DNA of 64,000 bases from Streptomyces sp. CB02400 (GTDB lineage Bacteria; Actinomycetota; Actinomycetes; Streptomycetales; Streptomycetaceae): the NCBI RefSeq assembly GCF_001905725.1, contig NZ_LIWB01000009.1, positions 1-64,000 on the forward strand, read 5' to 3'. Positions 10,649 through 27,195 of this stretch are shown here, in pieces (the stretch's first letter is position 1; each line of letters opens with the position of its first letter). The position numbers and the translations under genes were made by a program. The notes below the pieces were generated by a model. It had not been told where the DNA came from. It was given only the letters and a program-made list of their open reading frames with translations, and did no database searches.

Positions 10649-10767
10649 GGGCCCTCCACTGGTCGCAAACTCATCCGTAAGCACTACAAAACGGCACAAT
10701 CGGCTGGACGGCCACTCGAAAGTTCTGGTGGGGTGCTCGCTGGTACGCTGGCAGACGGCTGCTGACC

Positions 10768-10974
10768 CCGTGCGGGAGAGCCCTCCGGACACCATCGGGG
10801 GCGCCGAAGGAGCAAATCCTCCCCGGAATCTCTCAGGCACACGTACCGCACGGACGAGGTCACTCTGGAAAGCAGGGCGGGTGTCGACGGCTTCCGCTCT
10901 CACCGACGGTGAAAGCCGGGCGCCTTCGGGCCGTCCGGTGAAGCTCTCAGGTTGAGATGACAGAGGGGGAGGCC
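10768..10974 (+). promoter_or_regulatory. Tandem glycine riboswitch (gcvT motif) controlling gcvP
   Basis: Two consecutive aptamers. The first has P1 strands GTGCGG (10770-10775) and CCGCAC (10846-10851), with the conserved core GCCGAAGGAGCAA and GAATCTCTCAGGCA. The second (about 10871-10974) has CACCGACGGTGAAAG and GAAGCTCTCAGG, ending GACAGAGGGGGA. The arrangement is that of known cooperative glycine riboswitches that activate glycine-cleavage genes. No T-run follows, so the output is likely translational. A possible expression platform is a perfect 7-bp pairing between GGAGGCC (10968-10974) and GGCCTCC (11023-11029) at the ribosome-binding site. Confidence 0.95.
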
Positions 10975-24428: not shown

Positions 24429-24962
24429 GTGCAACCCCGTATCCCCCGGCAGCAGGCCCAGGAGCTCCAGGAGCAGGGCATCCACCGCGCGGAGAACGAT
24501 GTCAGGCTCGGCGCCGAGCTGGCAGCGGTGGTGTCCGGTGCCCGGCGCAGAGCGGTCCGGGACGGGGACCGGCAGATCGACACCGCCCATCTGCTGCACT
24601 CGCTCCTGGAGTCCGACGCCGACGTGAGAGCCCTCTTCGGTGAGGGCCCGCGGATCGCCCGGCTGCTCGGCTACCTGGTCCAGCGCAGCATCGGCTACGG
24701 GCTGCGCTGGCAGGGCGCGGTCGAGGACTCCGGAAGCGTCCCCGTGGTGACCGAGACCGCGGGCCTCTCACCGCTCGCCGCGGGCTGCATGGAGTACGCC
24801 CACGAGCGCGCCGCCCGTCACGGCCGCGGCCCGGCGTGCGGTACGGACCTGTTCGCGGCGATCGTCGTGGACCCCCGGGCACGCGCCGTCGAGGTGCTCG
24901 AACGCGCCGGGATCGACCCCCGTGAACTGTTCGTCCGACTTGAGGCGCCGTCCGGTCGGTGA
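24429..24962 (+). CDS. Clp N-terminal domain protein (stand-alone)
   Basis: A 177-residue soluble helical protein. The two halves (about 20-90 and 105-175) each look like the repeat of the Clp_N domain that recruits substrates or adaptors to ClpA/ClpC ATPases (RQIDTAHLLHSLLESDADV; CGTDLFAAIVVDPRARA). There is no ATPase domain. Stand-alone Clp_N proteins are common in Streptomyces and may act as decoys or adaptors; that is inference. The ribosome-binding site is weak. Confidence 0.8.
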   Translation: MQPRIPRQQAQELQEQGIHRAENDVRLGAELAAVVSGARRRAVRDGDRQIDTAHLLHSLLESDADVRALFGEGPRIARLLGYLVQRSIGYGLRWQGAVEDSGSVPVVTETAGLSPLAAGCMEYAHERAARHGRGPACGTDLFAAIVVDPRARAVEVLERAGIDPRELFVRLEAPSGR

Positions 24963-25014
24963 GACAGGTGCCACAAGGGGTGACGCTCCTGTCGGGGCCT
25001 GTCATCATGTGCCG

Positions 25015-26010
25015 GTGCCTACCTCTGTCATCACCCCGAGCGACCACCGGAAGGGCGTCGGGCTCGGCCTCGCGCTGCTGTCCGCGCTGGCCTTCGGGGG
25101 TTCCGGTGTGGCGGCCAAGCCGCTGATCGAGGCGGGTCTCGACCCGCTCCACGTCGTGTGGCTGCGGGTGGCGGGCGCGGCGCTCGTCATGCTGCCGCTG
25201 GCGGTGCGCCACCGGGGACTCCTGCGCAGCAGGCCCGGACTGCTCGCCGGGTTCGGCCTGTTCGCCGTGGCCGGCGTCCAGGCCTGCTACTTCGCCGCCC
25301 TCTCCCGCATCCCCGTCGGGGTCGCCCTGCTGGTCGAATATCTGGCGCCCGCGCTCGTGCTCGGCTGGGTGCGGTTCGTGCAGCGGCGGCCGGTGACCCG
25401 TGCCGCCGCGGTCGGCGTGGTCCTGGCGGTGGGCGGGCTCGCCTGCGTCGTGGAGGTGTGGTCGGGCCTCGGCTTCGACGCGCTCGGTCTGCTGCTGGCG
25501 CTCGGCGCGGCCTGCTGCCAGGTCGGCTACTTCGTCCTGTCCGACCAGGGCAGCGACGGCGACGAGGCCCCCGACCCGCTCGGTGTGATCGCCTACGGGC
25601 TGCTGATCGGCGCCGTCGTCCTGACCGTCGTCGCCCGCCCCTGGTCCATGGAGTGGTCCGTGATCGCCGGCAGCGCGGAGATGGACGGCACCCCGGTCGC
25701 CGCCTTCGTCCTGCTGGCCTGGATCGTCCTCGTCGCCACGGTGGCCGCGTACGTCACCGGGGTGGTGTCGGTGCGCCGGCTCTCCCCGCAGGTCGCCGGT
25801 GTCGTGGCCTGTCTCGAGGCGGTCATCGCCACCGTCCTCGCCTGGGTGCTGCTCGGCGAACACCTGTCGGCACCCCAGATCGTGGGCGGCGCGGTGGTCC
25901 TGGCCGGTGCCTTCATCGCCCAGTCCTCGGCCCCGGCGAAGGGTTCCGGGAAGCCGGTGGCGAGCGGCGGTCCCGAAAGAGAGTTGTCCGCGCCGGGAAC
26001 GACCGCATAA
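25015..26010 (+). CDS. EamA-family transporter (first)
   Basis: A 331-residue membrane protein with ten predicted helices arranged as two EamA repeats, as in drug/metabolite exporters. The substrate is not predictable. The GTG start appears leaderless: GTGACG (24980-24985), 17 bases, CATCAT (25003-25008), then six bases to the GTG. The stop codon is embedded in the promoter of the leader peptide that precedes the next EamA gene. Confidence 0.88.
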   Translation: MPTSVITPSDHRKGVGLGLALLSALAFGGSGVAAKPLIEAGLDPLHVVWLRVAGAALVMLPLAVRHRGLLRSRPGLLAGFGLFAVAGVQACYFAALSRIPVGVALLVEYLAPALVLGWVRFVQRRPVTRAAAVGVVLAVGGLACVVEVWSGLGFDALGLLLALGAACCQVGYFVLSDQGSDGDEAPDPLGVIAYGLLIGAVVLTVVARPWSMEWSVIAGSAEMDGTPVAAFVLLAWIVLVATVAAYVTGVVSVRRLSPQVAGVVACLEAVIATVLAWVLLGEHLSAPQIVGGAVVLAGAFIAQSSAPAKGSGKPVASGGPERELSAPGTTA

Positions 26011-26013
26011 GGT
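25984..26013 (+). promoter_or_regulatory. Promoter of the leader peptide and second EamA gene
   Basis: TTGTCC (25984-25989), an 18-base spacer and TAAGGT (26008-26013). The TAA of the -10 is the stop codon of the upstream EamA gene. Transcription is expected to begin at or beside the ATG at 26021. Confidence 0.65.
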
Positions 26014-26020
26014 GCTGATC

Positions 26021-26062
26021 ATGCATGCGCGCGCACTCGTTCTTCCGCCTCCGGCCGCCTGA
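26021..26062 (+). CDS. Leaderless 13-residue leader peptide
   Basis: The short frame encodes MHARALVLPPPAA and a TGA. Its ATG lies seven bases after TAAGGT, so it is probably the first codon of the mRNA. It precedes an EamA exporter by 173 bases containing hairpins. A run of three prolines is a known ribosome-stalling sequence that needs EF-P, and Leu/Val codons precede it, so ribosome pausing could control the exporter. Existence of the promoter is strongly suggested by sequence; the regulatory role is inference. Confidence 0.6.
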   Translation: MHARALVLPPPAA

Positions 26063-26082
26063 AGCGGGCCCTCCGGTACATC

Positions 26083-26103
26083 CGCCCGGCACGTCGCCGG
26101 GCG
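26083..26103 (+). promoter_or_regulatory. Hairpin between leader peptide and second EamA gene
   Basis: A perfect 8-bp GC stem (26083-26090 with 26096-26103) with a five-base loop, 20 bases after the leader stop. It is not followed by a T-run. It could act as an attenuator or terminator in the leader transcript. Confidence 0.5.
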
Positions 26104-26235
26104 TAACGGTGCTGCCCGCAGACGAAGTCCGCGGATCCCGCCGCTTCGGCCCCGACCGGGCCTGATCCGGGATCCCTTCCCGAACTTCCGTGCCGCGCCC
26201 GAGGGGTGTGGTGCGCGCATCTGCGGAGAGAACAC

Positions 26236-27195
26236 GTGTCGAACGCCGTCTCCGGCCTGCCCGTCGGGCGAGGCCTCCTCTATCTGATCGTCGCCGGTGC
26301 CGCCTGGGGCACCGCGGGCGCGGCCGCGTCGCTGGTCTACCGGACCAGTGACATGGGCCCGGTCACCCTGTCCTTCTGGCGCTGTGCCGTCGGCCTGGTC
26401 CTGCTGCTCGCCGTCCGGCCGCTGTCGCGGCGCCGCCCCCGGACCGCCGCCCCCGAGCCGCTCGGACGCCGAGTGCTGCGGGCCGGGGCCACCGGAATCG
26501 GGCTCGCGGTCTTCCAGACCGCCTACTTCGCCGCCGTCTCCGCCACGGGACTCGCCGTGGCCACCGTCGTCACCCTCGGCGCCGGACCCGTCCTGATCGC
26601 ACTCGGCGCCCGACTGACCATGGGGGAGCGGCTGGGGCGCGGCGGGCTGGCCGCCGTCGCCGGCGCGCTCGCCGGACTCGTCGTGCTGGTCCTCGGCGGC
26701 GGGGAGACGACCGTGGACCCGTGGGGCGTCCTGCTCGCCCTGCTGTCCGCGGCCGGATACTCGGCGATGACCCTGCTCACCCGCTGGTGGGGGCGCGACG
26801 GCGGTACGGACTCCTCCGGCAGGACCGTGGGGGCGTTCGCCGTCACCACCCTGGTGCTGCTGCCGTTCGCCGCGGTGGAGGGCCTCGTGCCGCACACGGA
26901 CGCGCCCGGCACGCTGCTGTTCCTTCTGGCGTACGTCGCCTCCGTCCCGACGGCGCTCGCGTACGGCCTCTACTTCGCGGGTGCCGCCGTCGTGCGGTCG
27001 GCCACCGTGTCCGTGATCATGCTGCTGGAACCGGTGAGCGCGGCGGTGCTCGCGGTCGCCCTGCTCGGCGAGCGGCTCACGGCGGCCACCCTGGCCGGAA
27101 CCCTGCTGATGCTGGGCTCGGTCGCCGGGCTGGCGGTGGGCGAGGCACGGGGTGCGCGGGCCCGCAAGGGGGAGCCGGAAGCCGTACCCGCGTGA
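26236..27195 (+). CDS. EamA-family transporter (second), leader-peptide controlled
   Basis: A 319-residue membrane protein with two EamA repeats and ten helices. The start GTG follows GGAGAG. A sequence rich in Pro/Arg links helices 2 and 3. It differs from the exporter just upstream and is not a recent tandem copy. Control by the upstream leader peptide suggests that the substrate is an amino acid or related metabolite, but this is inference. A strong terminator follows. Confidence 0.88.

Follow-up and report, generated by a model that had tools for sequence, protein, structure and literature searches.

A conserved, apparently leaderless polyproline leader peptide upstream of an EamA-family transporter gene in Streptomyces and other actinomycetes, with a proposed role in attenuation

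Between two genes for EamA-family (DMT) transporters in Streptomyces sp. CB02400 lies a short reading frame that ends in a run of proline codons and appears to serve as a leader peptide for the second gene. The DNA analyzed here, called the window below, is the 64,000-nt stretch at positions 1 to 64,000 of contig NZ_LIWB01000009.1 (assembly GCF_001905725.1), and all features discussed are on its + strand. The upstream transporter gene occupies 25006-26010 (the start is approximate; the open frame is 24922-26010), and the downstream gene, the presumed regulated gene and called the exporter gene below, runs from a GTG start codon at 26236 to 27195 and encodes a protein of 319 aa. The putative leaderless leader peptide, MHARALVLPPPAA, has 13 codons (26021-26062), beginning with ATG 26021 and ending with a TGA stop codon at 26060-26062. 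Its Pro-Pro-Pro codons, CCG CCT CCG at 26045-26053, are the proposed site of a ribosome pause.

The promoter sequence assigned to the leader is embedded in the 3' end of the upstream transporter gene. A -35 element, TTGTCC (25984-25989), is followed after an 18-nt spacer by a -10 element, TAAGGT (26008-26013), the TAA of which is also the stop codon of the upstream frame, and 7 nt separate this element from ATG 26021. From the leader stop codon to the exporter GTG there are 173 nt, and the exporter Shine-Dalgarno sequence, GGAGAG (26225-26230), was assigned from its distance to that GTG. A preliminary description of this DNA had already proposed the promoter, its overlap with the preceding stop codon, the 13-codon frame, the 173-nt distance and a perfect 8-bp hairpin at 26083-26103, and each of these was confirmed, coordinates included.

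A generic sigma-70 scan did not call TTGTCC-N18-TAAGGT as a promoter. Across the 202 unique leaders described below, however, TANNNT is found 6-8 nt upstream of the start codon in every case and at exactly 7 nt in 174, a result that is partly built in, since the automatic leader search required [TCG]ANNNT 4-10 nt upstream. A TTGNC -35 element is present in 179 of the 202, with the 18-nt spacer in 175. Among the 194 leaders whose -10 element overlaps the stop codon of the upstream frame, TTG occupies codon position -8 exactly in 174, against a background in which TTG makes up 1.6% of the leucine codons of exporter genes. Judged from these counts, the arrangement is more than chance.

A longer open frame (25799-26062) contains the leader frame as its 3' part, so that the open frame alone proves nothing and conservation is needed to decide. 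A DNA search of 150 Streptomyces genomes gave matches in 88, and the leader frame is present in all 30 best loci of that search, the window's own included (22 seen as translations and 8 read from sequence). It is also present, with 11-14 codons, in all 20 additional loci that matched weakly at the leader or at the exporter start only. Loci fetched by similarity of the exporter protein make the fair samples: 77 of 80 named loci obtained in this way carry the frame, and a protein search of 61 Streptomycetaceae genomes returned 42 matches at E <= 7e-46 (again including the window's own), in all 42 of which the leader precedes the exporter gene. In one of these genomes (G087) the exporter gene is split, and its leader was read in locus L084. 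The preliminary description had made its proposal depend on conservation of the frame and its start among close relatives, and that is what was found, in 42 of 42 Streptomycetaceae genomes and in other families besides. We regard the conserved leader peptide, on this comparative evidence, as nearly certain.

Leaders were collected by scripts that demanded Pro-Pro; for some loci the rules were relaxed and the sequence was inspected by eye. The automatic leader test was passed by 242 of 250 loci, many of which overlap or were fetched by a DNA or leader-pattern match, and these supplied the 202 unique leaders. Four of the eight misses (L030, L033, L246 and L247) do carry a leader; two (L045 and L148, from S. 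calvus) have no start codon, and two others (L191 and L209) are without the whole leader region. A strict leader pattern was found in 116 of 392 Streptomyces genomes, compared with 7 of 392 for the reversed control pattern; variation in the core makes the strict pattern overlook many genuine leaders. One leader-pattern match, in genome G624 (L273), was rejected as a chance match inside another gene. More distant relatives of the exporter are divided: three weaker homologues from another genus (L314-L316) carry a leader, for example VHRHRVITPPPRH, as does L294 (family f28), whereas no leader was found upstream of the homologues in L296 (f14), L317 and L321 or of the paralogues in the same genome (L318-L320), L318 showing only an unrelated frame.

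The C-terminal core of the peptide is VLPPPAA in 163 of the 202 unique leaders, and VLPPPAV, IVSPPAA, VLPPPAR and further variants in the others; cores found outside that set include IVSPPPAR, ITPPPAL, ITPPPRH and LLPPPAA. Pro-Pro or Pro-Pro-Pro stands 1-3 codons upstream of the stop codon, in distant families as well, and a minority of leaders have two prolines only, in the form of Ser-Pro-Pro, Thr-Pro-Pro or Ala-Pro-Pro. The residues ahead of the prolines are restricted (mostly V/I/L, then L/S/T/C/V), while the N-terminal part varies by whole codons, giving lengths of 10-16 codons overall and 10-15 among the 202. All three stop codons are used (TGA 179, TAG 21, TAA 2). That proline positions P2 and P3 are always proline follows from the construction of the Pro-Pro search; what does not follow from it is that nearly all orthologues fetched by protein similarity pass while the third base of the proline codons varies (P2: CCT 127, CCC 40, CCG 35; P3: CCG 148, CCC 47, CCT 7).

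Codons that are rare in these genes are enriched in the leader. Among the 200 of the 202 unique leaders that were counted, valine is GTT in 136, leucine is CTT in 140 and P2 is CCT in 126, compared with shares of 1.6%, 1.4% and 3.5%, respectively, of their amino acid's codons in exporter genes. In Escherichia coli, CCC and CCU are reported to be the slower proline codons in diproline synthesis, and the effect depends on context: in the intermediate context FPPP, CCU runs pause more and CCG less, whereas in the weak context TPPP it was CCA that raised pausing, with LPPP also serving as an intermediate context (PMC8129111). The codon choice in the leader, by analogy with these results, fits a tuned pause; alternatively, the U-ending codons could serve to keep the RNA open.

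The leader extends beyond the Streptomycetaceae. A class-wide protein search gave matches at E <= 1e-15 in 60 of 197 genomes, and three family searches were added; the counts that follow refer to the loci examined, further rows of the class-wide search, including five genomes of family f25, being left out. In family f17 the leader precedes all 28 homologues (26 by the automatic test, with L353 and L362 read separately), and 25 of the 26 automatic leaders have the -10 element; of five weaker places in that family, L299 has the leader and L297, L298, L300 and L301 do not. Family f19 has the leader at 15 of 16 homologues, the exception being L366, where the frame is shifted because a run of C is one base shorter, which may be a sequencing error. 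In family f18 it is present in all three (L257, L258 and L259, the last with only two prolines), and in family f26 in 4 of 23; the 19 f26 homologues that are without it may belong to another subfamily or may have lost the leader. Control windows, taken from f17, f19 and f26 loci only, contained a leader-like frame in 1 of 201 cases, and none had the -10 element. Both plasmid records with an exporter match, L379 (NZ_CP020040.1) and L380 (NZ_CP109165.1), carry the leader as well, as MSFAAVLSPPVL and MCIAVLSPPAAR, and the exporter homologue of L379 adjoins a gene for a site-specific integrase.

The RNA between leader and exporter contains four short segments with alternative complementarities. 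Segment 1 (26054-26059), within the alanine codons, forms the 5' side of helix 1:2, with the leader stop codon in the loop. Segment 2 (GCGGGC, 26064-26069), just downstream of the stop codon, is common to helices 1:2 and 2:3. Segment 3 pairs with segment 2 as GCCCGC (26114-26119) and alternatively, as CCGCAGA (26116-26122), with segment 4 (UCUGCGG, 26220-26226), which extends into the exporter Shine-Dalgarno sequence. Since segment 2 is needed by both 1:2 and 2:3, and segment 3 by both 2:3 and 3:4, the helices are mutually exclusive. Two hairpins accompany them, the perfect 8-bp hairpin CGCCCGGC-ACGTC-GCCGGGCG (26083-26103), which lies inside helix 2:3, and a hairpin at 26124-26188 closed by GAAGU (26124-26128) and ACUUC (26184-26188). 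The preliminary description had suggested that pausing could set the formation of the 8-bp hairpin and thereby exporter expression. The hairpin is indeed conserved and covarying, but it lies in the longer 2:3 helix and nothing singles it out, and the mutually exclusive helices look like the better switch candidates. The more general idea that pausing sets RNA folding fares better, in that a conserved and apparently leaderless polyproline leader is placed for just such coupling.

Conservation of these segments was assessed in an alignment of 32 sequences (A1) selected for a recognizable segment 3 and the ACTTC motif, a selection that favors those segments. The alignment begins 24 nt upstream of the leader stop codon, so that the ribosome-free folds described below are without the first codons of the leader. 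Its near-invariant blocks are GAGGCGGGC at the stop codon, GGTGCTGCCCGCAGA, GAAGTCC, ACTTC and TCTGCGGAG at the exporter Shine-Dalgarno sequence; columns 33-38 and 148-151 are each required by two helices, with modest covariation support. From the alignment alone, RNAalifold pairs CCGCAG with CUGCGG and chooses helix 1:2. Helix 3:4 is paired in 96.2% of cells, compared with 29-49% when the partner is slid by 1-3 columns, and RNAalifold lists one of its pairs as A-U in 23 sequences, G-C in 3 and G-U in 3. Helix 2:3, paired in 99.5% of cells, hardly varies, and its support is therefore conservation and not covariation. Helix 1:2 has both-side changes at one pair, and its energies are better with its own than with swapped partners (none of 2000 permutations as good; 44 of 49 representatives); in the window, where A 26063 mismatches C 26059, it is weak (probability 0.03). 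The 26083-26103 hairpin helix is 92.4% paired with both-side changes at 3 of 7 pairs, and the 26124-26188 hairpin, in these 32 sequences picked for the ACTTC motif, is 95.0% paired with none. Folded as a whole, the region shows no unusual stability (z -0.63), and a generic longest-helix test of segment 2 with the region downstream is weak (mean 7.98 vs 7.08 bp in shuffled sequences; 10 of 46 at p <= 0.05).

A similar G-rich block directly 3' of the leader stop codon is found in other families; in f17, for example, CGGGCGGC follows the stop codon and CTGCCCGC lies further downstream. At f17 and f18 loci (such as L257, L258, L260 and L263), a further stem surrounding segment 3 seems by eye to covary between loci, with the pairs GUGGUCG/CGACCAC, GUGGUUG/CAACCAC and GGUCGUG/CACGACC. 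In f26, also by eye, the sequence CTCCGG(C) of the proline and alanine codons can pair with (G)CCGGAG 3' of the stop codon, and in three of the four sequences GGAGC occurs after the stop codon and again just before the exporter start, with a single GCTCC between; in L337, the remaining one, GCTGCTC is flanked by GGAGC and AGCAGC. This recurrence of one order of complementary segments in different letters, though seen in four sequences, speaks more strongly than any other observation for a switch acting on the Shine-Dalgarno sequence. We regard control of the exporter through this downstream RNA as likely.

How might the leader and the helices work together? The model that we favor, and consider more likely than not, is a ribosome-mediated attenuator at the level of translation, in which a pause on the prolines would favor helix 2:3 and expose the exporter Shine-Dalgarno sequence. 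RNA polymerase would start at the A of ATG 26021 or close to it, and a ribosome would begin directly on the leaderless frame. If it passed the three prolines quickly it would reach the stop codon and cover segment 2, leaving segment 3 to pair with segment 4 and mask the Shine-Dalgarno sequence (3:4, OFF). The leading edge of a ribosome lies about 15 nt beyond the first base of the P site. A ribosome that paused after joining two prolines, while the third proline codon occupied the A site, would thus have its leading edge at the stop codon; it would cover segment 1 but leave segment 2 free, so that 2:3 could form and the Shine-Dalgarno sequence would be exposed (ON). That a pause turns the gene on, and not off, is our best guess, for which the support is mixed.

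Folding predictions bear out the competition. With the bases up to 26062 removed, as under a paused ribosome in the model, the window RNA forms helix 2:3 with probability 0.97 and 3:4 with 0.02, and with segment 2 removed as well, 3:4 rises to 0.98. Across the 32 sequences, removing segment 2 raises the mean probability of 3:4 from 0.28 to 0.67, with an increase in 30, and masking the leader leaves 2:3 with a more favorable energy than 3:4 in 21.

Several results nevertheless weigh against this model. The rise of 3:4 must follow once its competitor is gone, and so it demonstrates competition but neither the direction of the switch nor the state in the cell. When no ribosome is present, helix 1:2 might be expected to hold segment 2 and leave the gene OFF, but folding gives this no clear support: ribosome-free window RNA has 2:3 at 0.75 and 1:2 at 0.03, and OFF is better than ON in only 15 of 32 sequences. 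Predicted accessibility of the Shine-Dalgarno sequence (means of 94 sequences after filtering) is 0.29 with a paused and 0.31 with a terminating ribosome, being higher in the paused state in only 36 of 94 (p 0.02, in the wrong direction), and the paused value is barely above that of the ribosome-free state (0.24; 60 of 94). The swap test was null for 2:3 (427 of 2000) and 3:4 (251 of 2000), and an unproposed pairing of segment 1 with segment 3 reached 36 of 2000, which indicates that relatedness inflates the test. The RNAalifold covariation term is slightly unfavorable (+0.14), and helix 2:3 was not chosen. Of five covariation measures for 3:4, two were attained in 290 of 500 shuffles and three in 10 of 500, and the evidence of compensation in that helix comes down to a single pair of columns, in 3 of the 32 sequences. 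Finally, the leader can be lost. Its start codon is gone in S. calvus L148 and L045, apparently through a 4-base deletion, and the leader together with its RNA (around 1955-2080 of the locus) is gone in L191 (S. triticisoli) and L209 (Streptomyces sp. NTH33).

These losses have features of their own. L148 and L045 keep the promoter, the polyproline codons and the downstream RNA blocks, and so form a natural loss-of-leader variant. In L191 and L209 the exporter gene follows almost directly after the end of the upstream gene, with the -10 element changed to TGAGGT and the -35 element to CTTTCG and CTGTCG.

The same leader and the same pause could act on transcription instead, the helices determining whether RNA polymerase terminates before the exporter gene, intrinsically or through Rho, or reads through, as in the Salmonella mgt leaders. 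The failure of predicted Shine-Dalgarno accessibility to follow the translation model speaks for this, as do the reported description of S. lividans leader peptides as transcription attenuators, several of them without a U-run (PMC8079986), and the reported likeness of C-rich polyproline codons to Rho sites (PMC5021804). A simple consensus scan of the + strand, however, found no terminator-like site in 26063-26236, and the entry of segment 4 into the Shine-Dalgarno sequence, along with the GGAGC of the f26 post-stop block that is repeated before the exporter start, points to initiation as the output; we consider control of termination rather unlikely. The prolines might also matter for something other than their supply: if a ribosome-targeting antibiotic were sensed through arrest of the nascent chain at VLPPPAA, the transporter could be a resistance pump. 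The restricted residues ahead of the prolines, and the position of the prolines 1-3 codons from the stop codon even in distant families, would suit such an arrest, and antibiotic-sensing upstream open reading frames (uORFs) are reported before Streptomyces ABC-F genes (PMC12421871). Nothing in our data links the locus to a drug, however, and the transporter family is broad and without an assigned substrate; we think this explanation unlikely.

Two further alternatives deny the leader a role in cis. The peptide might act in trans, the helices serving only the exporter ribosome-binding site, which would account for C-terminal amino acids that are kept with differing codons. It is difficult to see, however, why such a peptide would have a free N-terminus, a length of anywhere from 10 to 16 codons and a frame tied to one downstream gene, and in L191 and L209 the leader was lost together with the promoter hexamers; a trans-acting peptide is very improbable. 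Least probable of all, and practically negligible, is that the frame is a matter of chance and that conservation is confined to promoter and RNA structure. It is true that the leader ends a longer open frame, that its codons overlap pairing segments and that the searches demanded Pro-Pro, but of 80 loci obtained through exporter similarity alone, 77 pass, compared with 1 of 201 control windows, and the use of three stop codons, the variation in length by whole codons and the recurrence of the ending in other families, spelled there with other nucleotides, are not what a chance frame would show.

The favored model, attenuation of translation by a polyproline pause, has relatives among known systems, and the view taken in the preliminary description that no system of this form had been described was too strong, given the Salmonella mgtP and mgtL leaders and the leaderless leaders of S. 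lividans (PMC3641672, PMC5021804, PMC8079986). In Salmonella, mgtP is a proline-codon-rich leader open reading frame (ORF) that responds to low prolyl-tRNA (PMC3641672), and both a proline-rich mgtL leader and an effect of EF-P exerted through mgtP are reported (PMC5021804). As here, a short leader ORF with consecutive proline codons lies upstream of a transporter gene, and pausing at prolines alters the folding of the leader RNA; the mgt leaders differ in preceding Mg2+ transport genes, in their transcription-level output and in belonging to another phylum, and no sequence likeness was seen. The gene downstream here is a DMT (EamA) gene and the Shine-Dalgarno sequence seems to be the output, so that the two may work alike without being classed together. 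To our knowledge, the mgtP and mgtL leaders are not leaderless. The proposed unmasking of a downstream Shine-Dalgarno sequence resembles ermC-type translational attenuation, in which a ribosome paused on ErmCL changes the RNA structure (PMC10219788), though that pause needs erythromycin while the leader here looks leaderless and has a polyproline end. More generally, a short, conserved, same-strand ORF with mutually exclusive helices that overlap both the leader and a regulated signal is the layout of ribosome-mediated attenuators. ErmCL has its own Shine-Dalgarno sequence.

Leaderless leader peptides are, for their part, known in Streptomyces. The leaders leuL, trpL, ilvL, thrL, metL and alaL of amino-acid genes have 12-29 codons with hairpins downstream, and seven of eight leader peptides in S. 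lividans are reported to be transcribed leaderless, with 4-9 nt from -10 element to start in leaderless genes (PMC8079986); the 6-8 nt between -10 element and start codon in all 202 putatively leaderless leaders fall within this range. Those leaders precede biosynthesis, uptake or tRNA-ligase genes and contain the cognate codons, and none of the eight S. lividans leaders, in the portion of that report drawn on, is a proline leader or stands before an EamA gene. Cysteine-rich upstream small ORFs in mycobacteria, with a C-terminal codon cluster, have been proposed as attenuators (PMC4633059), but they use cysteine codons and are followed by cysA2 or other cysteine-metabolic or hypothetical genes. 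In the Streptomyces ABC-F uORFs of lmrC, tiaA and are5sc, a pause on the uORF controls the downstream gene (PMC12421871), but the peptides are unrelated, the pause is drug-induced, in tiaA and are5sc at the start codon, and the output is a terminator/antiterminator switch. Among the matches listed in searches of the open literature for VLPPPA, for actinobacterial proline or polyproline leaders and for EamA with a leader peptide or uORF, no title or abstract describes the present leader; subscription papers and preprints lay outside those searches, so such a system may be in print. The present system would join a polyproline leader, as known in Salmonella, to a leaderless leader, as known in Streptomyces, a combination that we do not know from elsewhere.

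The exporter protein matches PF00892 (EamA) with E 5.7e-29 (101.6 bits, gathering score 28.2), falls below the cut-off of every matching NCBIfam model and has no relative at E <= 0.01 in a sequence search of solved structures; these matches place it, as far as class goes, in the broad EamA/DMT family, with no substrate assigned. Rfam covariance models gave no gathering-score match in the leader region, five sub-threshold matches in 25950-26300 all being far below gathering. The sole gathering-score match within the 64-kb window is a glycine riboswitch aptamer (RF00504) at 10763-10858, with 68.6 bits against a gathering score of 32.

If a pause on the prolines sets the switch, then its input would be slow Pro-Pro-Pro synthesis, which could arise from a shortage of prolyl-tRNA, from low activity of EF-P or from a compound that acts likewise. 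An importer, or the removal of a toxic compound, would fit induction by proline limitation better than a proline exporter would. A fuller proposal, which we advance only tentatively, is that the leader is a sensor of polyproline synthesis, shared by several actinomycete families, tuned by rare codons and answering to EF-P, prolyl-tRNA or a compound by switching on one DMT transporter. If this were true, it would imply a metabolite, as yet unknown, whose transport is tied to the translation of proline codons. The similar layout built from other letters makes f26 well suited to work on the evolution of attenuators. If it operates as proposed, the attenuator would be a switch based on a leader peptide and shared by several families of antibiotic producers among the actinomycetes, as well as a natural reporter of polyproline pausing in them, and it would link that pausing to one transporter, the substrate and signal of which are directly testable.

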